Source: a virus. From it: a DNA stretch of 22,416 bases. The translations under genes were made by a program, and so were the position numbers. Location: positions 1 through 22,416 of IMG/VR virus record IMGVR_UViG_3300042006_000188; one strand, written 5' to 3'. The notes below the pieces were generated by a model. That model did not search any database and was not told the DNA's origin. It was given only the letters and a program-made list of their open reading frames with translations. Shown here piece by piece: positions 688-17,053 of this stretch. The stretch's first letter is position 1. Every line of letters starts with the position of its first letter.

Positions 688-3600
688 ATGCTGAAGTACG
701 CGAGCGCTGTGATCATGACGGCGGATCTCGCCCCCAAGGGTGCGAGCCGTCGTGAACTGCGCCGTTTCGCCCACCGGCACCACTTCGACTACGAGGTGCG
801 GCCGGGGTTCCTGTACGTCCGCTCGCGGGCCATCTCCAGCCGGTGCAACGACAACTTCGACGAGTTCCCGGCCGAGGAGCTGGCGAAGGCGTACGCGACC
901 TTCATCGGCAAGCCGGTCTTCGTTAATCACGTCAACCATGATCATCGGCGGGCCCGGGGCGTGATCATCGACGCGGCCCTGCACAAGGACTCCAACCGCG
1001 ACGGCACGAAGGACTGGTGGGTCGAGGTCCTCCAGGAGGTGGACGCGGTCCGCTTCCCCCGGCTGGCCAAGGAGATCCTCGCGGGCAACATCGCGCGCAC
1101 CTCCATGGGCTGCGATGTTGCCTTCAGCGTCTGTTCTGCCTGCGGCAACAGGGCGACCACACCGGCCGAGTACTGCCAGCACATCCCCGGCTCCAAGGGC
1201 ATGATGCTGTATCGCAGGACGGCCTCCGGCCAGAAGGTCGGAGAGATCATCCGAGAGACCTGCTACGGCCTGAAGTTCTTCGAGAACTCCCTCCTGGTCG
1301 AGCCCCCGGCAGACCCCACGGCCCACTTCCTGGGTGTTGACACCCGGGGCCTTCAGTCGACGGCCATGCGCAAGGGCGCCCCGTTCGCGGACTACAAGGA
1401 CTTCGAGCAGTGCACCGAGGAGAACTCGGACAAAGACGACCCGTCGGACTACTGCGGCGAGATCAAGCACAAGACGGAGGACTCCAAGAAGGAGTCGGCC
1501 TACACGAACCCGTACGAGCACGACGACAAGACGGCAGGGAAGGATCCCCGCTTTGAGGGTGTGGGCCTGAAGCAGGACGACAACGGCTGGTACGTCACAA
1601 CCCACAGGGCCCGATCGGACTCCTACGAGAGCCCCGAGAAGATTCCCCAGTCCGTGGTGGACAAGATCGAGTCCACCGGCAAGCGGGTCACCCGGATCGA
1701 CCTGAAGGCCCTTGCAGCCCGCAAGAAGGCCTCTTCGCCCGACGGCTGGACCGAAGGCGAGTCCTTGGGGTGGGACGCGATCGGAGAGCGCCATCCAGAC
1801 ATCTACGGCGACCCGGAGGTCCACGAGGGCGCCGAAGGGGATGGCGATGGCATCGGCTGGGCTGCCAGTCACCTGGCACATGCCACCCCTAAGGACCCGG
1901 ATGCCGACGAGCACGGATCCTGGGACCTGACGTTCCATTCTGAGCACGTCGACCCGTACAACATCGACCACGCGCGTCATGGCGGCGCCTCCGACGGCCG
2001 GGTGCGGTACGCGGCCCAGGGCTACAAGGAGAACCCAGATCAGGTGCCTCCGCTCGTCCTGGTACACCGTCACGGCGTCTATCAAGTCGCCGACGGTCAT
2101 CACCGCGCCGAAGGGGCCAAGTTGGCCAACCAGAAGACCGTGCGCGCCTACGTCGCCTACTCGCCGTACCCCAACGAGCCCTCCAGCGACGGCGAGAGGG
2201 CTCCGTACCACGGCGCGAAGGAACACCCGGGCAAGCAGCCCCAGTGGGAGAAGGACTTCCAGGCCAAGCACGCCCGTAAGACGGCCGCCTGGAGCGGAAA
2301 CACTTACAACCCGGCGGAGTTTCCGCCTGACGCCCCGCACAACGCCGTTGCCTACCAGCCCGGCAACGGGGACTACAAGGTCTCCTGTGAGCGCGGCTGC
2401 ACGGACGCCAAGGGGTTCGCTGGCCACTGGGGTCAGCACGGTGCGGCAGGCCTTCTGATCCGCCACCAGGACCAGAACGGCACCCAGCGGTTCCTGATGC
2501 AGCAGCGGCACTTCCACATGCAGCACGGCGGCACCTGGTCCATTCCCGGTGGGGGCACCACTGCCGAAGAAGTCGGCAATCCCAAGCGGACCGCCTTCCG
2601 TGAAGCCAAGGAGGAGATGGGCCGGAACATCCCGGAACTCCGTGTCTCCCACACCCACCACGACGACCACGGCGGATGGGGCTACCACACGGTGGTTGCC
2701 GATACCCACCAGCCCTTCGTGCCCACCCACACGAGCAACGAGCACCTGGGTTCCGGCTGGTTCACGGCCAACGAGGTGGACAAGCTGAACCTGCACCCGG
2801 GGTTCAAGGAGTCCTGGGACAAGGTCAAGGACACCCTGAGCCAGCACCCCTGGCAGTCCCCCTACGGGAAGCAGGCCAAGCTGGCCTACGGCGAGCAGAA
2901 GGCCCCCATGGACGTCGACACCCTGCGCGAGGACGCCTGCCCCGTCTGCGGCGACCGCGACACCTTCGACGGCGACACCTGCGAGGTCTGCGGATACGTC
3001 GCCCCACCCAAGATCTTCCAGGACCCGGACCTGGAGAAGGCCCGTCAGATGGACCTGCGGAAGGACGTCGCAGAGTTCAACGACCCGGCCAACCCCAACC
3101 AGATCGGCCCGGACGGCCAGCCCGTTCAGGACCCGATGGATCCGAACGCCCTGGATGAGAACGGCAACCCGATCAACCCGGACGCTGCGGACCAGGAGAT
3201 GCAGCCCGGCATGCTCCCCGGAGAAGTACCGGCCGAGGTGCAGCCTGGCGGCGACCCCATGGACCCCGGAGCGCTCGGAGAGGAGGGCCAGATCCCCGAG
3301 GAGACGGGAGCACCTGTAGACCCGTCGATGCTCGGGCCGGACGGCCAGCCTCTGCCCCAGCAGCAGATGACGCTGCCGGACGGGACGCCGATCGGTCCGC
3401 AGACCCTCCCCGGGGATGCGACCACCAACATGGGCCAGCCGTTCACCCCGGGCCCGAACATGCCCGAGGGGCCCGGCGAGCCCGAAGGTCCCGAGGGTCC
3501 GGCGACCCCCGAGGATCTGGACGAGGACGGCCAGCCTGTCGACCCGGATGCGGGTCAGGGAGTTCCCGGGACGCCGGGAGACGGAGTGCCCGATCTGATG

Positions 3601-3795
3601 TGCCCCGCCTGCGGGTTCACCACAGAGGCCACTCAGCCGACCTCGGTCGACATGGACACCCAGGAGCTTCCGAACGTCGGCATGGCTCAGATGGACGGCG
3701 CCCAGGCGGGAGATGTCTGCCCGAACTGCGGATCCGCCCAGCTTCTGAGTCCGGCCGAGGTTCAGGGGCAAAGCAGCGTCCCGATGCCTGTCTGA
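688..3795 (+). CDS. Capsid maturation protease / scaffold-like protein with embedded ParB-like and Nudix domains
   Basis: A 1035-residue protein. The start at 688 is chosen because GGTGGAGG lies 7 bases upstream; the frame is open to 499 but that part reads through the terminator. Residues 1-215 resemble phage prohead proteases: GKPVFVNHVNHDH (candidate His 81/84), then ARTSMGCDV (candidate Ser139), then Cys149/152/163 with His165. Residues 450-490 look like a ParB/sulfiredoxin-type domain (LVLVHRHGVYQVADGHHRAE). Residues 583-700 are a Nudix-like domain whose box (about 620-645) ends in REAKEEMG, with a 2-3 residue insertion in the usual spacing. Cys751/754/765/768 form a zinc ribbon. Residues 790-965 are acidic, Pro/Gly-rich and scaffold-like with PDGQP repeats. 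Cys972/975 and 1011/1014 form another ribbon. It would process the head shell. The central domains are unusual for this family, whose members are generally much shorter. The protease call is inferred from motifs and position. Confidence 0.65.
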   Translation: MLKYASAVIMTADLAPKGASRRELRRFAHRHHFDYEVRPGFLYVRSRAISSRCNDNFDEFPAEELAKAYATFIGKPVFVNHVNHDHRRARGVIIDAALHKDSNRDGTKDWWVEVLQEVDAVRFPRLAKEILAGNIARTSMGCDVAFSVCSACGNRATTPAEYCQHIPGSKGMMLYRRTASGQKVGEIIRETCYGLKFFENSLLVEPPADPTAHFLGVDTRGLQSTAMRKGAPFADYKDFEQCTEENSDKDDPSDYCGEIKHKTEDSKKESAYTNPYEHDDKTAGKDPRFEGVGLKQDDNGWYVTTHRARSDSYESPEKIPQSVVDKIESTGKRVTRIDLKALAARKKASSPDGWTEGESLGWDAIGERHPDIYGDPEVHEGAEGDGDGIGWAASHLAHATPKDPDADEHGSWDLTFHSEHVDPYNIDHARHGGASDGRVRYAAQGYKENPDQVPPLVLVHRHGVYQVADGHHRAEGAKLANQKTVRAYVAYSPYPNEPSSDGERAPYHGAKEHPGKQPQWEKDFQAKHARKTAAWSGNTYNPAEFPPDAPHNAVAYQPGNGDYKVSCERGCTDAKGFAGHWGQHGAAGLLIRHQDQNGTQRFLMQQRHFHMQHGGTWSIPGGGTTAEEVGNPKRTAFREAKEEMGRNIPELRVSHTHHDDHGGWGYHTVVADTHQPFVPTHTSNEHLGSGWFTANEVDKLNLHPGFKESWDKVKDTLSQHPWQSPYGKQAKLAYGEQKAPMDVDTLREDACPVCGDRDTFDGDTCEVCGYVAPPKIFQDPDLEKARQMDLRKDVAEFNDPANPNQIGPDGQPVQDPMDPNALDENGNPINPDAADQEMQPGMLPGEVPAEVQPGGDPMDPGALGEEGQIPEETGAPVDPSMLGPDGQPLPQQQMTLPDGTPIGPQTLPGDATTNMGQPFTPGPNMPEGPGEPEGPEGPATPEDLDEDGQPVDPDAGQGVPGTPGDGVPDLMCPACGFTTEATQPTSVDMDTQELPNVGMAQMDGAQAGDVCPNCGSAQLLSPAEVQGQSSVPMPV

Positions 3796-3873: not shown

Positions 3874-4812
3874 ATGGGCAACAAGACCCAGTCGGGGAAC
3901 CGACCGCTCATGCAGGCCATGGCGTCCCAGCAGTCGATGCTGAACAAGATCGCGGCCCGCAACGAGGCCCTGGAGCACGACAACGCCGTGCTGAAGCTCC
4001 AGCTCGCATACGTCGCCCGTCTCGCCGGTGTCTCGGCCGAGCTGGACGCGATCCGCGCCAAGGCCAACGAGATGCGCAAGAAGGCCGACGCCGACAACCC
4101 GGCCCAGCCGGTGCCGAACCCGGCCTCCCAGCCCGCCACGGAGTCCACCGAGCAGGCGGCCACCCCGGAGGCGTACGACAACCCCAACCAGATCGGCCAG
4201 ACCCCGGGCGCCAACCAGGGTGTGGCGGCCGAGACCACGGCCACCCCGATGGATCCGGGTGTCACCCTCCCCACCGAGCCGTACAACAACCTGGTGGACG
4301 TCTCCGCGCCGGTCGCCGGTACCGAGACCCACACCCCGCCGGAGACGACCCGCATCGAGACCGACGTCCGCGTGGGCGACCCGATGAACCCGGAGACGGC
4401 CTACCCGCTGAACCCGGCCTTCGGCCCGTCGGCCCAGCAGGGCACCACGCCACCCCGTGACGGTGAGATGAGCCAGACCTCCTCGCACCGGACCATGGCG
4501 TCCATCCGCCTGGCCCGGCTCCAGATCGCAGCCGGAATCGCCCAGGGTGAGGACCTGGCGGTGGCGGCCAGCATCGAGGCCGACCGGACCATGACGGACG
4601 CGATGATCCGCCGGGAGATCACGACCCTGGACCGTGTGAACAAGGCGGCCACCCGGCAGGCCCGTCCCCAGAAGCTGGTTCCGCGTGCCGCCGCGAGCAC
4701 TCAGGGCGTCCAGCGGACCATGCCGTCCCTCGTGACCCAGCCCGGTCCGATCACCTCGGTGGCCGGTGCCGTCGGCTCGATCGACGAGGAAGCTGAGAGC
4801 CTGTTCGACTAG
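3874..4812 (+). CDS. Scaffold-like structural protein (N-terminal coiled coil, Pro/Thr-rich middle)
   Basis: A 312-residue protein with AGAGGAAG about 10 bases before the ATG. Residues 10-75 are helical with coiled-coil character (KIAARNEALEHDNAVLKLQL, then ELDAIRAKANEMRKK). Residues 76-210 are low-complexity, rich in Pro, Thr, Ala and Asn. Residues 210-275 are again helical (MASIRLARLQIAAGIAQGED). The acidic C-terminus ends SIDEEAESLFD. I recognise no named family. Its place between the protease and the capsid genes, together with its composition, suggests a scaffolding or internal head protein that shapes the procapsid and may be a protease substrate. A shared NPNQIG motif (also at protease residues 802-807) hints at a link with that protein's scaffold-like tail. 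A terminator follows the gene. Confidence 0.5.
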   Translation: MGNKTQSGNRPLMQAMASQQSMLNKIAARNEALEHDNAVLKLQLAYVARLAGVSAELDAIRAKANEMRKKADADNPAQPVPNPASQPATESTEQAATPEAYDNPNQIGQTPGANQGVAAETTATPMDPGVTLPTEPYNNLVDVSAPVAGTETHTPPETTRIETDVRVGDPMNPETAYPLNPAFGPSAQQGTTPPRDGEMSQTSSHRTMASIRLARLQIAAGIAQGEDLAVAASIEADRTMTDAMIRREITTLDRVNKAATRQARPQKLVPRAAASTQGVQRTMPSLVTQPGPITSVAGAVGSIDEEAESLFD

Positions 4813-5515: not shown

Positions 5516-6505
5516 ATGACGACTCAGACTCTCGCCACCACTTCGTCCCTCCGGGGACGCATCGCCCGCAAGTCGGACGACTACGCTTCCGCGATCATCG
5601 CCCGCCGCGAGAAGAGCGCCCCGCTCTCTCACGAGGCGAAGGTCCAGAAGATGGCGCTCATCCTCTCCGACGAGACCGGCGGCATCCGCCGTCTCGGCGT
5701 CGGCATGGTGGGCCCCATCCAGTTGAAGCTGCGCTACCAGGGCATCACCCGCAACGTGCTCGTGGAGGACCCGGTCACGCCGGGTACCCCCGTCGAGTAC
5801 GACGTCTGGGATGACCTGGGCCAGGCGTACATCATGTCCGGCACCGAGGGCGAAGTCCGCGTGACTCCGTTCGAGGGCAAGCGTGTTCCGGTGCGGTTCT
5901 TCCGCATCGCCTCGCGCCCGGCGATCCGCAAGGAAGACCTGTTCTACCTGCGTATCAACGCGGTCGAGCAGGCCCAGGACGAGACCAAGCAGGCCATCCT
6001 CAAGCAGGAGGACACCCGCCTGCTGGTCCTGCTCCAGGCCGCCCTGACGGACTACGCCACCCGGCCCGACCACACGGTCACGCCGAACCACAACATCACC
6101 GAGGCGTCGGGCTACCTGACGCCGGGCTCGCTGTACTCGGCCGTCGCCATGACGGACATGCACGAGCTTCAGTCGGCGCGGATCCTGATCAACCCGTTCG
6201 ACTTCCGCGACCTCTACCGGTGGGACATCAACCAGACCGGCTGGGCCTTCAAGGACCGCGTCGTCGCCGGTGAGACCATCACCAGCTTCGGTGAGTTCCA
6301 GATCCAGCGGTCGATCATCGTGCCCCAGGGCAAGGTGTTCCTCACGCCGGAGCCCAACTTCCTGGGCGTTTTCCCCGTCTTGTACAGCCTTGACGTGGAA
6401 GAGAACCATATGGTCGAAGCCTTCTGGAAGGGCTGGGTTTTCGACGAAATGGTCAACATGTCCATTTTGAACCCGCGCGGTATCGCCACCATCACGAAGG
6501 CCTAG
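5516..6505 (+). CDS. Major capsid protein
   Basis: A 329-residue protein with AGGAG (5504-5508) 7 bases before the ATG. The first 40 residues are basic and Ser/Thr-rich. A helical stretch follows (about 130-175, ending KQAILKQEDTRLLVLLQAAL), like the spine region of HK97-fold shell proteins. The C-terminal third has the alternating strands and loops expected of the P and A domains (VPQGKVFLTPEPNFLGVFPV, VEAFWKGWVFDEMVNMSILN). It would assemble the icosahedral shell. Position fits: it follows the protease, scaffold-like and decoration genes, and a 15-bp terminator follows it. No long N-terminal delta domain is present, which agrees with a separate scaffold. The assignment is by context plus fold-like pattern. 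Confidence 0.75.
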   Translation: MTTQTLATTSSLRGRIARKSDDYASAIIARREKSAPLSHEAKVQKMALILSDETGGIRRLGVGMVGPIQLKLRYQGITRNVLVEDPVTPGTPVEYDVWDDLGQAYIMSGTEGEVRVTPFEGKRVPVRFFRIASRPAIRKEDLFYLRINAVEQAQDETKQAILKQEDTRLLVLLQAALTDYATRPDHTVTPNHNITEASGYLTPGSLYSAVAMTDMHELQSARILINPFDFRDLYRWDINQTGWAFKDRVVAGETITSFGEFQIQRSIIVPQGKVFLTPEPNFLGVFPVLYSLDVEENHMVEAFWKGWVFDEMVNMSILNPRGIATITKA

Positions 6506-6634: not shown

Positions 6635-6698
6635 CCGTCCTGTCCATCACCCTCACGGTGCCCCGAAGGGGTGAACAGTGCTTCGAGAGGATGCCGGT

Positions 6699-7925
6699 AT
6701 GCACGCGAGCCGTGAGTGGGTCCCGCCGAGACGGAACACCGAGGACCCGAACGTGCCGCCCCTGCCCGGCATGCCGGAGGCCAAGGTGCCCCGTATCACG
6801 CCCTTCCACAAGCTCTATCGCCAGTCCGGGAACCACGAGGTGTGGGGTCATCTGGCCCACCCGGATCTCCAGGAGCACAACCCATTCCTGAAGGACCACG
6901 ACAGGGAGTCCTTCAGCGGGCCCGGCTCTCAATGGCGCCAGGACCATGGCGGGTGGGCGGACAAGGAAGATGACTTCGAGGGTGATCCCGAGAGGATCCG
7001 GCGCCACATCCAGAACACTCTGGACAAGGCCTCTCCGGCCATCGCGATCGACACTCACCCCCTGCACCAGGTGCTGGACAGCGGCCGGGTGAAGTCCCAG
7101 TTCGAGACGCACTCTTCCGGCGGCATCCTGGCCCCGGACGAGCGCGAGAACGTCGAGCACAAGATGTTCGGCTATCCACTCGGCCTGCCCCATCATGCGC
7201 GGCCGATCTACGGCTACCTCACCAACGATCCGTCACAGCACCATCCCGGTGCCTATCCGTACGGCAGGCACACCCTGGTGCTGCATCGCCCCCGCGTCTG
7301 GCATCGGACGAGCGCCTTCATCGGCGACACCCTGGACCACCAGGGGTACGGCCACTCCGCGCACCCGGTGCAGGACTTCGGGCTTTCCGGATTCCACGAC
7401 CACGTGGACCCCCGGAAGTGGCGGCTGGACAAGTACGACTATGACCAGGACGTGCCCTACACCGAGGCCCACTTCCACGGCGGGGTCGGCCTCCGGGACA
7501 TCCACTACGCTGTACTACACAAGCCGGACGCCTCGGCATCCCGGTACGACGAGACCGGAATGCGGCGTCACGAGGCGCTGAAGCAGAAGCTGAATCACCA
7601 CAAGATCCCCTGGGTCGAGATGGAGAACGGCAAGCCGGGGGAGATGGAGCACCATCTCAGCCGTCTCATGCGCAACGCGGCGAAGGGGGCACACATGCAC
7701 AGCAACCAGTCCAAGGTCATCGGCCAGCAGGGCCCCGGCCGCTACCTGATCGACCTCGGCTACCACGACGAGAAAGGCCACCGCCAGGCCCAGATCGCTG
7801 ACACGAACACCGGTGAGCTGCATCCGCCCATGTCCAAGGACTCGATCCTGGCGCGCGGGTACTGGGACGAGCCGGACTTCGACGTGGATGTTCACGACGT
7901 CCTGCCGCACGTCACCCCGCAGTAG
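6699..7925 (+). CDS. DUF3626 / ADP-ribosyltransferase-like protein
   Basis: A 408-residue protein with GAGAGG (6685-6690) 8 bases before the ATG. The family hint comes from a chain of motifs: VLDSGRVKSQFETHSSGG (125-142), an E-x4-FG block (EHKMFGYP, 153-160), RPIYGYL (168-174), RTSAFIGDTL (203-212) and YTEAHFHGGVGLRDI (254-268). From memory, DUF3626 proteins carry the same order (QFET..S.G, RPkYG.L, gDS, EAQ.HG), which resembles the R-S-E layout of ADP-ribosyltransferases. If so, Arg168, Ser205 and Glu256 are the candidate active residues. The first 110 residues and the last 130 have no recognised domain. The protein is unusually rich in His and Asp. It sits between terminators and converges on a leftward regulator, so it is probably an accessory (moron-like) gene. 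Catalysis is inferred only. Confidence 0.5.
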   Translation: MHASREWVPPRRNTEDPNVPPLPGMPEAKVPRITPFHKLYRQSGNHEVWGHLAHPDLQEHNPFLKDHDRESFSGPGSQWRQDHGGWADKEDDFEGDPERIRRHIQNTLDKASPAIAIDTHPLHQVLDSGRVKSQFETHSSGGILAPDERENVEHKMFGYPLGLPHHARPIYGYLTNDPSQHHPGAYPYGRHTLVLHRPRVWHRTSAFIGDTLDHQGYGHSAHPVQDFGLSGFHDHVDPRKWRLDKYDYDQDVPYTEAHFHGGVGLRDIHYAVLHKPDASASRYDETGMRRHEALKQKLNHHKIPWVEMENGKPGEMEHHLSRLMRNAAKGAHMHSNQSKVIGQQGPGRYLIDLGYHDEKGHRQAQIADTNTGELHPPMSKDSILARGYWDEPDFDVDVHDVLPHVTPQ

Positions 7926-7954: not shown

Positions 7955-8200
7955 TCATTCCCGGTCGATATGGACGCCGGTCTTCCGGACCCAGGTCCTC
8001 TCGAAGTTGATCACGTCCTCCAGCAGCCATATCCGGCCACAGTCGAGTTTCCGCCAGTGCGGACACCGTGCGGAAGTGATCTCCATGGCTCGCTGCTTGG
8101 ATACCTTCCAGCGTCTCGACAGCTCCGCGAGGCCCAGGACGCCCACCTTGGAGATGTCTACGAGTCGAGGCGGCGGGGCCTCTTCGTGCTTGTCTTCCAT
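7955..8200 (-). CDS. AlpA/excisionase-like winged HTH DNA-binding protein
   Basis: An 81-residue leftward protein, the only convincing minus-strand gene in the window. Residues 20-70 match actinobacterial HTH_17/AlpA-type proteins: LGLAELSRRWKVSKQRAMEI gives the helix-turn-helix, and a wing-like CGRIWLLEDVINFERTW follows. Such proteins bind DNA as small regulators or recombination directionality factors. No integrase is present here, so a transcriptional role is preferred. There is no Shine-Dalgarno site. Instead a promoter (TTGACG, 17-base spacer, GATGCT at 8235-8207) ends 6 bases before the ATG, predicting a leaderless mRNA. It converges on the DUF3626-like gene, sharing its terminator, and is flanked by dyad motifs it might bind. 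Reality of the gene is supported by the domain, promoter and terminator together. Confidence 0.75.
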   Translation of the reverse strand: MEDKHEEAPPPRLVDISKVGVLGLAELSRRWKVSKQRAMEITSARCPHWRKLDCGRIWLLEDVINFERTWVRKTGVHIDRE

Positions 8201-8206
8201 GGATCA

Positions 8207-8235
8207 AGCATCAGGCCTGGCGTTAACAGCGTCAA
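8207..8235 (-). promoter_or_regulatory. Leftward promoter of the HTH gene
   Basis: On the minus strand, TTGACG (8235-8230), 17 bases, then GATGCT (8212-8207). The -10 ends 6 bases before the ATG at 8200. The -35 overlaps a TGA-N5-TTA variant of the dyad motif, so autoregulation is possible. Confidence 0.5.
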
Positions 8236-8247
8236 CTGGAGGAGGGG

Positions 8248-8276
8248 TTGACAGTGTCAGGCCCTAGTGCAATGCT
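8248..8276 (+). promoter_or_regulatory. Rightward promoter with dyad motif, site 2
   Basis: TTGACA (8248-8253), a 17-base spacer, then AATGCT (8271-8276) preceded by TG (TGC extended -10). It mirrors the divergent leftward promoter in -35 box, spacing and ATGCT core. The -35 is part of TTGACAGTGTCAGGCCCTAG, site 2 of the recurring dyad motif; TGACA/TGTCA is a perfect half-site pair. Confidence 0.5.
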
Positions 8277-8282
8277 CTGGTC

Positions 8283-8385
8283 AACGCGCATTCACTCATT
8301 GGTTCTAACCGGAACATCCGTTCCCCCACGGTCCGGTCCGAGCCAGCGCGAGAAGAAGGGCCCGAACCCCCTCGGGCCCTTCTTC
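8283..8385 (+). ncRNA. Candidate short untranslated RNA between promoter and terminator
   Basis: The rightward promoter at 8248-8276 would start RNA near 8283. A 14-bp terminator hairpin ends at 8385, which leaves about 100 bases with no credible open frame or ribosome binding site. This is inference from the flanking signals; no RNA family is recognised. An attenuated leader of the gene at 8448 is the main alternative. Confidence 0.3.
8352..8385 (+). terminator. Intrinsic terminator upstream of the 8448 gene
   Basis: A perfect 14-bp stem pairs GAAGAAGGGCCCGA (8352-8365) with TCGGGCCCTTCTTC (8372-8385), with a 6-base loop. Confidence 0.8.
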
Positions 8386-8411
8386 CTGTTCGACGACCTA
8401 TGACTCCGCCT

Positions 8412-8435
8412 AAGAGATGAACGAACAGATCTCTT
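8412..8435 (+). promoter_or_regulatory. Leader hairpin next to the ribosome binding site
   Basis: AAGAGAT (8412-8418) pairs with ATCTCTT (8429-8435), with a 10-base loop. It ends 1 base before CGAGGAG (8437-8443 region), the ribosome binding site of the gene at 8448. Confidence 0.4.
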
Positions 8436-8447
8436 CGAGGAGTCCCC

Positions 8448-8978
8448 ATGCCTGTCGGAACGGTCGTTGCCCGCAACCTCATGGACGGGGTCACCGTCCT
8501 CGCCTCGGATGTGAAGGGCACCCACTCGGTCGAGTGGGGCGCCAGGAACGATCCCAACGGCGACGACATCCAGTTCATCCCAGGCGAGGTCGTGGAGTCC
8601 GTCGCCTTCCGACGCGCCCTCGCCCGTGGCGTGATCGAGCTGATGGACGACCAGTCCGACCCCGAGGTGACCGAAGCCCTCTCGCGCCAGGTCGACGCCT
8701 TCAAGCGTCGCCAGGAGGGCGCGAAGGAAGAGGTCGAGGTGACGATCGACCGACCCACCAGCCGGGACCAGGTCAGCGCCTTCTGTGTCGGCCCGGACTC
8801 TCGCGGCACCGGCAAGTGCGGGGTCCCGGTGGCCATTTCCGAGAAGAAGCTCAAGGACACGCCCCCGCTGTGCGGCCAGCACACGCATCTGGCGTCGCAG
8901 TACGTGCCGGAGGCCGTGAAGGGGCAGGAGGACCGTATGGAGTGGGTCCGGGTCACTCTCGGCACCCGCGAGGGCTAA
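8448..8978 (+). CDS. Hypothetical structural protein with a zinc-binding-like Cys/His cluster
   Basis: A 176-residue protein with GAGGAG about 6 bases before the ATG. The N-terminal 70 residues look like a small beta/alpha domain (VVARNLMDGVTVLASDVKGT, then VESVAFRRALARGVIEL). A charged linker follows. Residues 112-150 contain Cys, Cys, Cys and His in the order FC-VGPDSRGTGK-CG and LCGQH, which could hold one zinc ion. No named family is recognised. It is the first gene of the 8448-10976 unit, after the capsid gene and the accessory cassette, so a head-neck or minor head role is plausible. The next gene starts 21 bases downstream with its own AAGGAGAGA site. Confidence 0.45.
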   Translation: MPVGTVVARNLMDGVTVLASDVKGTHSVEWGARNDPNGDDIQFIPGEVVESVAFRRALARGVIELMDDQSDPEVTEALSRQVDAFKRRQEGAKEEVEVTIDRPTSRDQVSAFCVGPDSRGTGKCGVPVAISEKKLKDTPPLCGQHTHLASQYVPEAVKGQEDRMEWVRVTLGTREG

Positions 8979-8999
8979 CCCCCAAGGAGAGACGAGCAG

Positions 9000-9812
9000 A
9001 TGGCAGAGAAGTCCGAGAACGAGGCCAGCAAGACCGGTCAGGACGTGGAGACGCCGGAGACCGGCCAGGACGTCAAGCGGGACTCCCTGGGGGAGCCGTA
9101 TGGCGACTCCGAGAGCGGCACGGTCAGCACGGCCGACGCCCCGGCAGGACCCGACCAGACGACCGGCAGCTACCTGGAGTCCCAGGACCACGTACCGGAT
9201 CCGACGGCCCTCACGGGCACCCTGGAGACCTCCGGCACCGGCGGCGGTGTGCACGAGCGCCTGACTGGCACCACGAGGATCTTCGGTGCGGTGGAGGACG
9301 TGGCCCGGCGCGTGGAGTCGCTCATCAACGAGCGGACCGAGGCGCTGAAGGAAGAGGTGCGCGGGCTGCTGCTTCAGCAGGAGGCTTCCGCCAAGGCCGC
9401 ACAGATCCCGCAGCAGTCGGTGGAGGAGCACGGCCTCCCGACCCACCAGGGCAACATCATCGCCCCGCACAACGACACCGGAGCGGGTCAGGACGCCCCG
9501 CGTTCCGCCAACGTGGCCGGGTCGCCGGACGACGTGAGCGACGGCGTCACCCGTGTGGAGGAGCCCGCCAAGGACTCCTACCAGCAGACCACCATCGCCG
9601 GTGCCGGTGACCCGGGCAAGCCCGTGGCGGCGGCCAAGAAGGCCGAGTCCGAGGGCGCCACCGAGGAGCCCCGGGAAGACGAGAACAAGGACTTCAAGCA
9701 GGCGGCCGACGAGTACGAGCAGAAGCTCAAGGGCGCCATGGCCGGGAAGACGACTCCGGCCAAGAAGACCACCTCTCGCCGTCAGGGCAACACCGGCGGC
9801 ACCAAGAAGTAG
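9000..9812 (+). CDS. Low-complexity coiled-coil protein, probable virion component
   Basis: A 270-residue protein with AAGGAGAGA about 8 bases before the ATG. Residues 1-80 are polar and acidic with a repeated TGQDV (12-16 and 21-25). Residues 90-135 form one likely coiled coil (IFGAVEDVARRVESLINERT, then EALKEEVRGLLLQQEASAK). The rest is disordered, ending in a Lys/Thr-rich basic tail (AKKTTSRRQGNTGGTKK) that could bind DNA or RNA. No enzymatic motif is visible. The basic tail and order of genes allow an internal head protein or a scaffold for the neighbouring fibre proteins, but neither is shown. The next gene follows after 27 bases. Confidence 0.4.
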   Translation: MAEKSENEASKTGQDVETPETGQDVKRDSLGEPYGDSESGTVSTADAPAGPDQTTGSYLESQDHVPDPTALTGTLETSGTGGGVHERLTGTTRIFGAVEDVARRVESLINERTEALKEEVRGLLLQQEASAKAAQIPQQSVEEHGLPTHQGNIIAPHNDTGAGQDAPRSANVAGSPDDVSDGVTRVEEPAKDSYQQTTIAGAGDPGKPVAAAKKAESEGATEEPREDENKDFKQAADEYEQKLKGAMAGKTTPAKKTTSRRQGNTGGTKK

Positions 9813-9839
9813 GCCGAGAACCCGTAGGGGAGCAGCACC

Positions 9840-10976
9840 ATGACAACACCGCCCGGATACACGGGTAACCAGACCGACACTTCGGGCGTGTCCGGAAACA
9901 CCGGTGCTGCCCCCGACGGTACGCAGGACAACGCGTCCGTCACCGAGACCTCCACCCCGTCCGGCTACGGCGGCGACCCGGACACCGGACTCAAGCCGGA
10001 TCCGCTGGTTCAGGTCTCCACCGGCACCAGCGACACGTCCGGCACCAACAGCTCCAACGCGGGTCCGTTCACCGCGTCGAAGAACTACCTGACCGGCACC
10101 CCGGACACCCAGACCATCGGGTGGCCGCAGACGCCGGGGGTCACCCAGCCCTACCGGCCGCCCACCCAGGGCATTGGCTACATCAACGCCACCGGTGCGG
10201 CCGACACCACCTGGACCGACCGGCCGATCTCGAACGGCACCGCCCGGCCGGACTACGTGCAGAACATGACCGGCACCCTGGAGTCGGCCCTGATCGGCTC
10301 CACGGGCCCCACGAGCGCCCTGGTACCCGTCGCGCCCTCCGGGACCCCCACGGTGGTCACCGGGCCCCGTCAGGTGACCGTCTCGTGGAACACCGTGGCC
10401 GACCCGGACGTCACCGCCCCGGTGACCGGATACATCATCCTCGGATCCACCGGCGGCACCACCTACGTGGGCGACGGTGTCACCTCGGCCGTGGTGACCA
10501 ACCTGGACCCGAGCCGGACCTACCAGTTCCGCGTGCTGGCCCGGAACAAGAATGGCGACGGCCCGTACGGGGCCCTGTCCGCCGCTGTCCGTCCGTACAA
10601 CCCGGACGCGCCGGACGTCCTCAAGCCCGGCGGCCTGGACGCCTATTGGGCGCAGAACCCCATCTACAGCCCTGACGGCACCGTGAAGGCCGGTTCGGGC
10701 ACCCTGGGCACCCCGGGAGCCCCCACGGGCGTCACGCTCTCTGGTGGCGGTGCAGGCACCCTCAACGTCACCTGGGTCGCCCCGGCGGACGCCTCCGAGG
10801 TCCGGAGCTACACCGTCACGCTGTCCACCGGACAGACCAAGTCCGTGGCGGCAGGAACCCTCACGACGTCGTTCACCGGCCTGACGACCGGTACCGCGAC
10901 GACCGCCCGTGTCACCTCCGTCGGTAGTGTGGGCAGCACCCAGTCCGCCCCGTCCGCATCGGTCAACGTGCCGTAG
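9840..10976 (+). CDS. Minor structural protein with two fibronectin type III domains
   Basis: A 378-residue protein with AGGGGAGC about 7 bases before the ATG. Residues 1-160 are Gly/Thr/Ser/Pro-rich and probably extended. Residues 165-252 are an FN3 domain (VTVSWNTV..., TGYIILGS, NLDPSRTYQFRVLARNKNGD). Residues 292-378 are a second, more degenerate one (LNVTWVAPADASEVRSYTV, FTGLTTGT). FN3/Ig-like repeats in phage virions are usually surface-exposed on capsid, tail or fibres and are thought to help adhere to cell surfaces or glycans. It is followed by a 16-bp terminator. Its position before the neck and tail genes makes a head-surface or collar appendage more likely than a tail-tube extension, which is an inference. 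Confidence 0.65.
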   Translation: MTTPPGYTGNQTDTSGVSGNTGAAPDGTQDNASVTETSTPSGYGGDPDTGLKPDPLVQVSTGTSDTSGTNSSNAGPFTASKNYLTGTPDTQTIGWPQTPGVTQPYRPPTQGIGYINATGAADTTWTDRPISNGTARPDYVQNMTGTLESALIGSTGPTSALVPVAPSGTPTVVTGPRQVTVSWNTVADPDVTAPVTGYIILGSTGGTTYVGDGVTSAVVTNLDPSRTYQFRVLARNKNGDGPYGALSAAVRPYNPDAPDVLKPGGLDAYWAQNPIYSPDGTVKAGSGTLGTPGAPTGVTLSGGGAGTLNVTWVAPADASEVRSYTVTLSTGQTKSVAAGTLTTSFTGLTTGTATTARVTSVGSVGSTQSAPSASVNVP

Positions 10977-10991
10977 CCGGAACCCCCGGAC

Positions 10992-11036
10992 ACGAGGAGC
11001 CCTGGGTGAACCTGACACCCGGGGCTCCTCGTACTT
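10992..11036 (+). terminator. Intrinsic terminator after the FN3 gene
   Basis: A 16-bp stem (10992-11007 with 11017-11032) with one T.G pair and a 9-base loop, followed by ACTTCTGTT. Confidence 0.8.
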
Positions 11037-11122
11037 CTGTTGGTAGTCGGCCGGTTGATCCTGTCGATCCACACGGCTCCCCTCGGAAGGGCTGAGGGAG
11101 ACCACGAGAGGAACTGGAGCGG

Positions 11123-11785
11123 ATGTCCACACTCAGCCAGCACATGGCCCTGAAGATCCCTGACGGGTCGGACCCGTTCCTGCGGACCGACTTCGTTCAG
11201 AACTACAACACTCTGGACAAATATCCGGGCGCGTACGTCTGCACGTCCGCCACCCGTCCCTCCTGGAGCGCGAGCCAGGCGGGCATGCTGATCGTGGAGA
11301 CCGACACCCGCAGGACCATGCTGTGGACCGGGACCACTTGGCGCGAGATGCTCTACGGCCCGGCCGTGTGGTGGGGCTCGATGCGCCCCCAGGTCATGGT
11401 CGGTGCGGGCACGATGGTGACCTATGTCGTAGGCACCTTCACCGTGAACCGGCCCGGCTCCCTGCTCGGACTGACCACCACCGAGCACGCACTGCCGTGC
11501 CGGGGTTACATCGGCGCTAACACTCGCGTCATGATCGACGGCGCGGACGCGAACTTCGACGGCCCCAACCAGTTCGGCGAGTACGTGCAGACGGCGTTCC
11601 CGAACACCTCCACGTTCGGTACCGACCGCTGGTACCAGACCGTGTGTTCCATGGGTGTCCGCAACATCTCCGCCGGAACCCACTCCATCGGCATCCGCGT
11701 CACGACCCAGAGCGGCTCGAACACCCAGCTCAAGCTGACCTCGGTCCGTGCGATGGCGATGTTCGTCAACGCGACGGACCGCTAG
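11123..11785 (+). CDS. Fibre- or appendage-like minor structural protein
   Basis: A 220-residue protein; GAGAGGAAC and CTGGAG precede the ATG. Residues 1-75 carry the pattern RPSWSASQAGMLIVETDTRR followed by WTGTTWREM. This is common near the N-terminus of actinophage tail-fibre and minor tail proteins (RP.w...qaG..iyETDT....yw.G..W). Residues 80-220 look like a beta sandwich with ordered strands (YVVGTFTVNRPGSLLGLT, VRNISAGTHSIGIRVTTQSG, LKLTSVRAMAMFVNA) similar to carbohydrate-binding or trimeric fibre tips. It probably contributes to host surface contact. It lies between a terminator and the 11794 gene, with 8 bases between the two genes. Confidence 0.55.
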   Translation: MSTLSQHMALKIPDGSDPFLRTDFVQNYNTLDKYPGAYVCTSATRPSWSASQAGMLIVETDTRRTMLWTGTTWREMLYGPAVWWGSMRPQVMVGAGTMVTYVVGTFTVNRPGSLLGLTTTEHALPCRGYIGANTRVMIDGADANFDGPNQFGEYVQTAFPNTSTFGTDRWYQTVCSMGVRNISAGTHSIGIRVTTQSGSNTQLKLTSVRAMAMFVNATDR

Positions 11786-11793
11786 GAGTCCTC

Positions 11794-12663
11794 ATGACGC
11801 TCTACTGGAACGACCGGCAGTACGTCTCGCAGTACGCCATCGACACGGTGGGGCTGAACATCGTCAAGGACCAGCAGCCGCTGGATGCCGACGGGCCGGT
11901 CACCGTCCAGATGGTCAGCGAGGACACCGGCCAGATCATCTTCAACCGGACGGCCGATCACCTGGGGCTGGGCGACTACGCCACGGCCTTCAGCAGCGCC
12001 GAGACGTCGATCCCCGGCTCGTACACCATCCGGTGGGACTATGACATCGCCGGGGGACAGCAGTACTTCGAGGGCGGCGTAGAGATCGGTCCGGCCTCCC
12101 CGGCGTACGACAACCTGCCGGACCCCATGAAGGCCATCATCGAGTCGGTCTGGATCCGGATCGCCGACCTGATCGACTCGCCCGGCGGGGGCCCGAACGC
12201 CCTGACGTACGTTCAGAGCCGGTTCGGCCGGGGCCGGATCGCGGAACTCCTGCGCATCGCTCTGGGCCGGATGAACACTATGGCCCAGCCCTTCCAGAGC
12301 TACACCCTGGACGGCAACGGGGGAGCCCAGTTCCCCTACCAGCAGTGGGGTCCACTGCTGGAGAGCATGACGTGGATCGAGACGCTCAAGCACCTGATCC
12401 GGATCTACACCGAGCAGCCGAACTTCATCGGGTCCGGCAACGTCTCCCGGCTCGACCGACGGGACTACGTCCAGCGCTGGCGGGATGTCCTCATGGAGGA
12501 GGAGCAGCTCGTGAAGGAGCAGCTCCAGGTCTTCAAGATCGCCTCCATGGGCCTCGGAAGGCCTGCGGTACTGATCAGCGGCGGCGTGTATGGCAGGTAC
12601 GGCCCGACTCGTATGGCCGGAAGCATTGCCGCACGTCCGAGGTACTGGACGAGGTACTACTGA
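11794..12663 (+). CDS. Hypothetical neck/connector-like structural protein
   Basis: A 289-residue protein. The ATG at 11794 follows TAGGAGTCCTC, so AGGAG is 5 bases from the start; the frame extends upstream but overlaps the previous gene. Residues 1-100 look like an Ig-like beta domain (QPLDADGPVTVQMVSEDTGQ, SYTIRWDYDIAGGQQYFEGG). Residues 105-250 are helical (MKAIIESVWIRIADLIDSPG, LLRIALGRMNTMAQPF, MTWIETLKHLIRIYTEQPNF, WRDVLMEEEQLVKEQLQVFK), and the tail is basic (GRYGPTRMAGSIAARPRYWT). I recognise no named family. A beta domain joined to a helical bundle, in the head-to-neck region, suits a connector or an appendage adaptor. The terminal stop overlaps a 12-codon open frame. Confidence 0.45.
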   Translation: MTLYWNDRQYVSQYAIDTVGLNIVKDQQPLDADGPVTVQMVSEDTGQIIFNRTADHLGLGDYATAFSSAETSIPGSYTIRWDYDIAGGQQYFEGGVEIGPASPAYDNLPDPMKAIIESVWIRIADLIDSPGGGPNALTYVQSRFGRGRIAELLRIALGRMNTMAQPFQSYTLDGNGGAQFPYQQWGPLLESMTWIETLKHLIRIYTEQPNFIGSGNVSRLDRRDYVQRWRDVLMEEEQLVKEQLQVFKIASMGLGRPAVLISGGVYGRYGPTRMAGSIAARPRYWTRYY

Positions 12664-15491: not shown

Positions 15492-16262
15492 ATGGCATTG
15501 CTGTGGAAGAACGCCGCCGCCTTCCAGCGGGAGGGCATGGCCTGGTATGTCGAGCCGGGCGAGGAGCACTACGCCCAGACCGCGAAGCACGTCAAGAACG
15601 CCGGATTCGCGGGCTACGTCGACCATGACGCCGATACGCGGGCGGAGTACAACGAGGGTCAGAGCGGCGACGAGGGGGGATGGGATGAGGACCTCAACGA
15701 CCAGGCGCACGAGCAGGCGCTCACCTCGCGCGATCAGCGGCACTACGACGAGCACGACGACTACCCGGAGTCGTACTGGGGTCGCCAGGACCAGGCGTAT
15801 CAGCGACTGAAGGACCAGAAGGCCCGAGATGAAGAGCCGGACCACGAGGACAACGCCCTGAAGCGCTTCGTGGGCAACCACGGCACCAACACGGCCCACT
15901 GGCAGCAGCACGGGACCTATGGCGCGGTAAACCTCAAGCAGCCGGTCTACGCCACCCAGAGCCACGTCTCCCAGGCACACATCGACAAGTACCTGGCCGA
16001 TCCCGGCGCTACGAGTCACCACCGAATGAAGTACGGCGAGACGACGGGCAACAGCAACTACCTCGGTGACGGCGCCCCGATGTTCGTCACCCACGAGGGC
16101 CGCCTGCACGCCACCGAGGGACACCACCGGACGGCCGCAGCCCTCCAGCGCGGGGACAGCCACATCATGGGCTGGCACTACGACGCCGACCAGCACGGCT
16201 TCCCGGACGAAGAGGGGCGGATGCCCGACCATCCCGACTACGAAGATTCGGACGAGTGGTGA
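15492..16262 (+). CDS. ParB/sulfiredoxin-like 'GHHR' protein, paralogue A
   Basis: A 256-residue protein with AAGGAATTT before the ATG. The N-terminus ALLWKNAAAFQREGMAW is nearly shared with the next gene. Residues 30-125 are acidic and His/Asp-rich without a recognised fold. Residues 146-230 look like a ParB/Srx-like domain: NLKQPVYATQSHVSQAHIDK (first strand and helix), APMFVTHEGRLHATEGHHRT (central strands and the GHHR box at 210-213) and AAALQRG. ParB-fold proteins include DNA/CTP-binding, nuclease and phosphoryl-transfer enzymes. The dGxHR box usually contacts the nucleotide, so nucleotide binding is a reasonable guess and nothing firmer. It sits between neck genes and overlaps its paralogue by 4 bases. 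Confidence 0.55.
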   Translation: MALLWKNAAAFQREGMAWYVEPGEEHYAQTAKHVKNAGFAGYVDHDADTRAEYNEGQSGDEGGWDEDLNDQAHEQALTSRDQRHYDEHDDYPESYWGRQDQAYQRLKDQKARDEEPDHEDNALKRFVGNHGTNTAHWQQHGTYGAVNLKQPVYATQSHVSQAHIDKYLADPGATSHHRMKYGETTGNSNYLGDGAPMFVTHEGRLHATEGHHRTAAALQRGDSHIMGWHYDADQHGFPDEEGRMPDHPDYEDSDEW

Positions 16263-17053
16263 GCCTGCTATGGAGAAGGGCCGCTGCCTTCCAGCGGGAA
16301 GGAATGGCCTGGGATCTTCGTTCTGGAGAGCATCATCCAGAAGTGCACCACGTCCGAGACGTGGGTTTCGCTGGGCATGTCGACTTTCATCCACGCACCC
16401 TCCAGGAAGAGTTCGGTGGTCGGCCGGAGGGGCTGAAGGATCCCTGGGACGATCGCGATGATGACCTCCATCAGGAGACCGCGCCAGAGATGCATCCGGA
16501 GGAGCGGGCCCATATGGACGCGCATGGGGTGCCCCCGGAGTCCTACTACGACAGGCATGACGAGGCCTACGAGAAGGCGTTCAACGACAGGGAGGCAAGG
16601 GTCCGGCCGGACCATCACGATGATCGCCTGATGCGGTTCATCCGGAACTTCGGCACTGATGTGGCCCACTGGAACGAGCACGGCACCTTCGGCCCGATCA
16701 GCCTGAAGCAGCCGGTCTACGCCACTCAGAGCCACGTGTCGCAGACACACCTGGACAAGTACCACGCCGACCCGCAGGCGCAGTCCGCGAGGTTCGACGC
16801 GTTTGACCCCGACATGATCCAGCACCTTCCGGAACACCATGGCGACAAGGCCCCCATGTTCGTGACGCATCAGGGCCGTCTGCACACGATCGAGGGTCAC
16901 CACCGAGTTGGTGCAGCCCTTCAGCGAGGGGACGACAAGATCGACGGCTGGCACTTCAACGCCGACGAGAAGGGCTTTCCCCACAATCCCGAAGAGGATG
17001 ACGAGCACCGGGAGTTCTGGAAATCGAGAGGGCGCGACGGAGATCGGTGGTGA
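16259..17053 (+). CDS. ParB/sulfiredoxin-like 'GHHR' protein, paralogue B
   Basis: A 264-residue protein. The GTG at 16259 is preferred to the GTG at 16256 because MSLLWRRAAAFQREGMAW then aligns residue for residue with MALLWKNAAAFQREGMAW of paralogue A. It overlaps A's stop (GTGA), so translation is probably coupled. Conserved blocks are LKQPVYATQSHVSQTHLDKY (149-168), APMFVTHQGRLHTIEGHHRV (198-217, GHHR at 213-216), ALQRGDDKIDGWHFNADE, and the PESYYDRHDEAY region. The segments between these blocks differ strongly. The nucleotide sequence of the shared blocks is also close, which indicates tandem duplication followed by divergence. Function is unknown, and nucleotide binding is inferred from the ParB-like fold. 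Confidence 0.55.
   Translation: MSLLWRRAAAFQREGMAWDLRSGEHHPEVHHVRDVGFAGHVDFHPRTLQEEFGGRPEGLKDPWDDRDDDLHQETAPEMHPEERAHMDAHGVPPESYYDRHDEAYEKAFNDREARVRPDHHDDRLMRFIRNFGTDVAHWNEHGTFGPISLKQPVYATQSHVSQTHLDKYHADPQAQSARFDAFDPDMIQHLPEHHGDKAPMFVTHQGRLHTIEGHHRVGAALQRGDDKIDGWHFNADEKGFPHNPEEDDEHREFWKSRGRDGDRW

Follow-up and report, generated by a model that had tools for sequence, protein, structure and literature searches.

A modular phage head-maturation protease with an exchangeable cassette slot: a predicted self-processing protease-cargo polyprotein

The stretch of viral DNA analysed here (the window; an IMG/VR virus record of 22,416 bases, G+C 66%) carries at 688-3795 on the plus strand a single unbroken open reading frame (ORF) of 1035 residues, which joins a head-maturation protease to ParB-like and Nudix domains and a ribbon-bearing tail. 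A widespread protease family has a fixed site that takes many exchangeable cassettes, and the Nudix and ParB-like parts are two of these. That the protein is a modular chassis, with a fixed protease and a variable cassette slot, we regard as nearly certain. On balance we also favour the view that the ORF product is a self-processing protease-cargo polyprotein, which would be cut, packaged and delivered. A reading of this DNA made without database searches (the sequence-only reading) had proposed one continuous frame from protease to tail, and the frame is indeed uninterrupted; a Shine-Dalgarno-like AGGTGGAGG lies upstream of its ATG. An assembly artefact was considered and rejected, because the protease and a Nudix domain recur in a single ORF in L023, L028 and L038, which come from other samples.

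Judged by profile matches, candidate His and Ser residues and gene position, the N-terminal domain (residues 1-222, nucleotides 688-1353) is a Caudoviricetes head-maturation protease. It matches PHROG 18299 (head-maturation protease) at residues 57-206 with an expect value (E) of 5e-22 and PHROG 2774 at residues 28-255 with 3e-67. His81, His84 and Ser139 had been named as protease residues. His81 (nucleotides 928-930) and Ser139 (nucleotides 1102-1104) are invariant in 21 relatives, over which the protease block is 60-94% identical, and are retained as candidate catalytic residues, but His84 is not invariant. When the protease part was compared by profile with PDB sequences, nothing relevant was matched among solved folds. 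Embedded in the domain is a Cys3His ribbon (C149-x2-C152-x10-C163-x-H165). The gene stands directly ahead of those for a scaffold-like protein (3874-4812) and the major capsid protein (5516-6505; PHROG 2522, 1.7e-102), all on the plus strand, as expected for a head-maturation protease of Caudoviricetes.

Two small modules beyond those described earlier follow the protease: module 1, the 'YCG' module (MRKGAPFADYKDF..DYCGEIKHKTE; residues 227-268, nucleotides 1366-1491), and module 2 (residues 282-345, nucleotides 1531-1722), which resembles PHROG 3666, a family of 62 residues matched at residues 276-331 with an E of 5e-9. Module 3 (residues 352-526, nucleotides 1741-2265) has, by profile and AF2 model, a ParB/sulfiredoxin fold, with a putative NTPase or DNase activity. 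PHROG 1033 (ParB-like) matches it at residues 424-485 (3e-5). Its sequence matched solved structures weakly; the AF2 model (predicted local distance difference test, pLDDT, 75) was matched by Foldseek to ParB (6sdk; E 2.4e-4, probability 1.00) and to sulfiredoxin (3cyi; E 2.6e-4, probability 1.00), with root-mean-square deviations of 2.6-3.6 across about 80 columns. The sequence-only reading had put a ParB-like GHHR domain at residues 469-473. The domain stands, but GHHR itself occupies 470-473, within DGHHRA at 469-474 (nucleotides 2092-2109). This conserved active-site Arg motif is invariant in nine relatives. The ParB-like cassettes are under purifying selection, with omega values of 0.07-0.39. 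These values come from simple counting and cannot be relied upon for the most distant pairs, in which base composition restricts synonymous change.

By sequence profile, module 4 (residues 558-716, nucleotides 2359-2835) is a Nudix domain, with a predicted hydrolase activity on NDP-linked substrates. PF00293 matches residues 586-704 (E 5e-10; 39.9 bits vs. a curated cut-off of 21.1), and the cassette also matches the MutT/Nudix family PHROG 1198 (3e-13) and PDB 6uuf (8e-19). The sequence-only reading had proposed a Nudix-type box ending in REAKEEMG; REAKEEMG lies at residues 638-645 (nucleotides 2599-2622), with the catalytic Glu residues intact. The box has a two-residue insertion, G-x5-E-x9-REAKEEMG as compared to the canonical Gx5Ex7REUxEExGU; the spacing is canonical in L023 and L038. 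The catalytic Glu is retained in the other Nudix-bearing relatives L023, L028 (REGLEEMH) and L038. Both enzyme-like domains of the earlier proposal have profile matches, and none of the findings that it had named as refuting it was made. Close-match scans of 84,980 genomes gave no cellular source for the ParB-like and Nudix cassettes, and no named phage had a matching ParB-like or Nudix cassette at an E of 1e-5 when the cassettes were searched alone.

The tail begins with a Cys4 ribbon module (YGEQKAP..VDTLRE..CPVCGD..CEVCGY..; nucleotides 2881-3057, Cys4 at residues 751-768), continues with an acidic Pro/Gly-rich stretch (residues 791-960, nucleotides 3058-3567; D+E 20%, K+R 1%, P+G 36%) and closes with a second Cys4 module ending in LSPAEVQG.. 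(nucleotides 3580-3792, Cys4 at residues 972-1014), for which PF14353 CpXC scored 0.0018, below the cut-off. The two Cys4 ribbons that had been recognized earlier are therefore both in place. An acidic, scaffold-like tail had also been proposed. The acidic stretch exists, but since the next gene, at 3874-4812 on the plus strand, is conserved and scaffold-like, the stretch does not make up the entire scaffold, and the tail is not the main scaffold of this phage. Homologues of its product occur in 25 relatives, and position suggests its role.

A scan of viral contigs gave 36 loci encoding proteins of 563-2013 residues, and 28 non-redundant members were compared by piece profiles. In these members the protease comes first, the ribbon tail comes last where it is present, and any subset of modules in any order fills the middle. 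The slot contains Nudix, ParB-like, DUF7178, GNAT and DUF6582 domains, which are swapped, re-ordered or missing. Pfam searches found DUF7178 in most relatives, Nudix in L023, L028 and L038, GNAT in L010, L024 and L038, and DUF6582 in L012. L003 corresponds to the window protein without Nudix and module 2, and L011 and L013 have almost nothing from protease to tail. In L010 and L012 the ParB-like cassette is followed by module 2, which precedes it in the window protein, and then by DUF7178; L010 adds a GNAT domain. Among eight relatives of 140-160 kb, four have a single Nudix copy and seven a single DUF7178 copy; each of these lies within a giant open frame, which for all seven DUF7178 copies is the protease ORF. 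DUF7178 probably has an HhH-GPD DNA-glycosylase fold. Its model (pLDDT 89) aligned best by VIA-align with 8-oxoguanine DNA glycosylases (Z 11.4, 10.9 and 10.9), the value of 11.4 lying in a range that chance matches between helical folds can reach. Its Lys127 and Asp163 are invariant, at what we take to be the positions expected of HhH-GPD enzymes. The whole-protein search also matched other phages (Erwinia, Dickeya and others). A layout unique to the window was rejected on the recurrence in 28 non-redundant relatives. The layout had been thought unlike that of any standard prohead protease; with these relatives, and with the polyvalent proteins of phages and plasmids (PMC5512222), it is not a one-off.

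Short basic motifs mark the borders of the exchanged units. In the window protein these are K-T-A ahead of module 2 (residues 281-283, nucleotides 1528-1536), K-K-A at residues 346-348 (nucleotides 1723-1731; KTA in L003), R-K-T-A ahead of Nudix (residues 530-533, with K531-T532-A533 at nucleotides 2278-2286) and K-L-A ahead of the tail (residues 731-733, nucleotides 2878-2886). The border before Nudix reads HARKTA/AWSGN in the window protein and YSRKTA/YGEQKAP in L003, where the tail follows directly since Nudix is missing. The joint before the tail is RKTA or RKLA in L003, L004, L010, L012 and L013, with RKLA/YGE or RKLA/FGE in the last three. [RK]TA was found in linkers in 39 distinct contexts, compared to 6.2±2.5 in shuffles, and inside domains 7 times vs. 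4.2 expected; permuted control words were flat. When all tripeptides were scanned without bias, KTA and RTA led the frequent words, and they did so again in a divergent subset of 14 members (KTA 11 vs. 1.4, RTA 11 vs. 1.9). A DNA repeat was rejected as its origin: the codons differ among sites, which makes the motif a peptide-level feature.

The motif is restricted to head-precursor proteins. A second giant family (PHROG 2940/30974; E3 gp76) is encoded upstream of the protease in the relatives' loci and carries Nudix, GNAT, Arr-type ADP-ribosyltransferase and intein modules. This family was not used in finding the motif, and it has 32 [RK]TA sites vs. 8.6±2.7. In 303 other genes of the same loci, taken from a simple ORF caller, [RK]TA occurred 31 times vs. 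39.7±5.9 and R[RK]TA 0 times vs. 2.5. The idea of [RK]TA as an N-terminal propeptide common to neighbouring genes found no support, since their first 40 residues were not enriched for it. Near its N-terminus the major capsid protein bears a candidate processing site, RGRIA/RKSDDY; [RK]-x-A lies directly ahead of (R/K)KSDDY in one capsid protein column in 21 of 23 relatives, and one exception has RKAA one residue earlier. In most relatives the scaffold-like protein has R-[TSA]-A in its C-terminal region. From these data we consider it likely that the protease cleaves at [RK]-T-A or, in a looser form, at [RK]-x-A. A capsid-targeting peptide, [ST]LxxL, before the cargo was weakly enriched (22 vs. 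12±3.7) and is suggestive at most.

We propose that the head-maturation protease of an actinobacteriophage-type myovirus serves as a cargo chassis. Its fixed parts, the protease at the N-terminus and the ribbon tail at the C-terminus, would place the chain in the procapsid core, and the region between them swaps small enzyme modules as intact units. A place in the core is suggested by L021, in which a single ORF of 1505 residues (7998-12515) holds the protease, the cassettes, the tail and also the scaffold-like protein that is otherwise encoded separately. The protease would act during maturation by cutting after [RK]-T-A-like motifs; its substrates would be the capsid protein, the scaffold and, at the joints, its own chain. 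Self-cutting would release the ParB-like and Nudix domains inside the head, each as an enzyme in its own right. These would then exit along with the DNA and, early in infection, act on nucleotides, nucleoside diphosphate-linked compounds or DNA. The cargo set (Nudix, ParB-like, a probable DNA glycosylase fold, GNAT and ADP-ribosyltransferase) resembles known injected repertoires, an analogy in keeping with such a role. An enzyme built into the procapsid had already been proposed for this gene; it is still the best reading and is partly supported. Whether the cargo is packaged and delivered we judge to be close to evenly balanced, leaning slightly toward delivery. The general form of the proposal, that any small enzyme recombined in frame would co-assemble, be cut free at [RK]TA and be delivered with the genome, in the neighbouring giant protein as well, seems to us as probable as its opposite.

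Several observations weigh against this proposal. The relatives share ancestry, so their motif counts are not independent trials and part of the enrichment is inflation; the effect is lessened, though not removed, by deduplication, the divergent subset and the held-out family. The joint after the protease in the window protein (LQSTA) has no basic residue. In six relatives (L023, L024, L026, L028, L030 and L033) the chain is divided over two ORFs that overlap or adjoin, one with the protease and cassettes and one with the tail, with or without more cassettes; tail module 1, which nearly all relatives keep, lies on the separate ORF in these loci. The splits may reflect gene fission, frameshifting or sequencing error, and they mean that a single polypeptide is not required. 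The glycosylase assignment of DUF7178 is probable only, because Foldseek alone gave no significant match for it. Propeptides removed by prohead proteases are generally expected to exit the head (PMC10052503), so the cargo might be lost and not kept; folded domains, unlike ordinary propeptides, may stay. Our literature search found neither virion proteomics nor experimental cleavage data for these phages.

The expected exit of prohead protease propeptides (PMC10052503) leads to a different explanation, in which the cassettes are cargo precursors that are freed and not packaged. They would act in the infected cell late in infection, or leave the prohead as small fragments and be degraded, and fusion would give no more than co-expression at the assembly site. 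The split chains agree with this idea, since they indicate that strict co-packaging may not matter. Such an account fits poorly, however, with an enriched motif that is common to three head-precursor families and missing from the 303 other genes, and with the recurrence of enzymes of like kinds in the gene next to the protease, and we consider it unlikely. The chain might also stay uncut. [RK]TA would then reflect no more than biased linker composition or the scar of a recombination, as its coincidence with cassette borders would allow, and the cassettes would work as a tethered multidomain protein; the virion RNA polymerase of phage N4 is packaged uncut despite a peptidase domain (PMC5512222). 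Against it stand the codons, which vary between sites, the permuted words, which are not enriched, and the capsid protein, which undergoes no cassette swaps and yet conserves a matching [RK]-x-A. This alternative too we hold to be improbable, to about the same degree.

The almost fourfold range of chain length between constant flanking parts could further suggest that the cassettes are structural filler or spacers, which tune core volume or scaffold geometry and whose enzymatic residues matter little. The catalytic motifs are nevertheless retained (the Nudix Glu residues, GHHR of the ParB-like cassette, and Lys127 and Asp163 of DUF7178), omega is low for the ParB-like cassettes, and minimal versions free of cassettes exist (L011 and L013). 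We find this the least probable of the three alternatives, and very unlikely.

The idea of polyvalent proteins is already known. Iyer et al. (2017) described proteins of phages and plasmids (conjugative elements) in which 2-15 disparate domains are joined and which are probably packaged, often with a processing peptidase; packaging and injection were predicted for those with ParB, GNAT, ADP-ribosyltransferase and peptidase domains (PMC5512222). The window chain likewise joins disparate domains (protease, ParB-like and Nudix), with a peptidase predicted to process it. In polyvalent proteins, however, the peptidase is most often a zincin, and the rare assemblin-like (head-type) peptidase is always C-terminal (PMC5512222), whereas the head protease of the window family is N-terminal (residues 1-222) and constant and the cargo slot is internal. 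The window family also shares a motif with its capsid protein, and two of its common cargo types differ: in the text of the polyvalent-protein paper glycosylase does not appear, and Nudix appears a single time, next to or fused with an InPase domain (PMC5512222). What is new here is the N-terminal head protease chassis, the internal slot and the motif shared with the capsid. We found no paper that describes the fusion, pairs a capsid maturation protease with Nudix or names DUF7178. In its passages on mosaicism, the survey of phage proteins by Smug et al. (2023) has 'capsid assembly' among the sequence-based mosaicism classes, and those passages do not mention head-maturation proteases (PMC10684548).

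The named phages E3, LinStu (Bxz1-type), Skog and Stormageddon have head protease genes with matching ends (PHROG 2774). Like the window gene, these encode the same protease, an insert and the YGE.(K/E)AP..VDTLRE tail, and the order to the capsid gene is the same. Unlike the window, these phages have no separate scaffold-like gene between the protease and capsid genes, and their inserts differ; in LinStu and Skog an L5 gp82-type domain (PF25735) lies between protease and tail. The records of the four phages contain no comment on the insert slot. In SPN3US/phiKZ-like and T4 heads, as in our proposal, many head proteins, ejected ones included, are substrates of a prohead protease that recognizes a short motif. 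Their cargo is separately encoded, each protein having its own N-terminal propeptide or targeting sequence, whereas the window cargo is fused to the protease. Phage lambda C/Nu3 and herpesvirus UL26 place a protease and scaffold-side sequence in a single chain. They have no exchangeable enzyme cassettes; in the window the cassettes are present and the scaffold-like gene is separate (fused in L021).

If the proposal is correct, the proteolysis of head maturation and injected effector proteins would be joined in one polypeptide, and one phage group would have an exchangeable, self-processing effector payload within its capsid protease. The [RK]TA joints would then offer a simple rule for finding processed head proteins and hidden cargo in a large, mostly unannotated phage group that includes the Bxz1-type mycobacteriophages. 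It would explain the 'endolysin' or 'tRNA synthetase' labels on head genes of these phages, and it would suggest a naturally occurring slot through which proteins could be loaded into phage heads.

Two such labels were seen among the relatives. The head protease of Eggerthella phage LE2-3 (LE23_71; L042, 11914-15027) is annotated as a tRNA synthetase, and intein-type domains start right past its Ser motif (TVSMG), at about residue 139; another intein-type insertion was seen in L033 (2130-6209). Skog gene 158 (L040, 11953-15201) is annotated as a LysM-like endolysin, a label apparently shifted from the LysM-like gene just upstream. The YCG module occurs alone, elsewhere or not at all in the relatives (behind DUF7178 in L021, absent from L004) and is also found in ScoobyDoobyDoo gp97. 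In the haloarchaeal virus HRTV-4 it is N-terminal on an apparent protease-scaffold fusion (gp37; L044, 3998-5581), and its presence in an archaeal virus suggests that the module is old and mobile.

Within the second giant family, L006 (103-3888) and L009 (113-3937) match Arr-type rifampin ADP-ribosyltransferase (Arr-ms, 1.6e-5 and 6e-11, respectively). The near-complete relatives L046 (1810-6072, minus strand) and L047 (639-6602, plus strand) have a further kind of giant ORF, of 1421-1988 residues. Nudix is present in both and 2'-5' RNA ligase in L046; by eye, ParB-, ADP-ribosyltransferase- and GNAT-like stretches can be seen. The L046 ORF starts with MSQTLTELFTTAAHKTAAPAEE, which resembles a targeting peptide plus joint motif.

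Elsewhere in the window, the plus-strand gene just past the capsid gene (6678-7925) encodes a protein of 415 residues with matches to DUF3626 (2e-5, below the cut-off) and PHROG 8314 (4e-11). A small minus-strand gene (7958-8203) encodes a protein with a helix-turn-helix-like stretch (LSRRWKVSKQRAMEIT) and is found at the same place in L003 and L006. Two plus-strand genes at 15492-16262 and 16256-17053 are tandem paralogues with ParB-like GHHR motifs and a common N-terminus (LLW..AAAFQREGMAW); the second matches PHROG 1033 at 0.029, and the pair is possibly separately encoded cargo.

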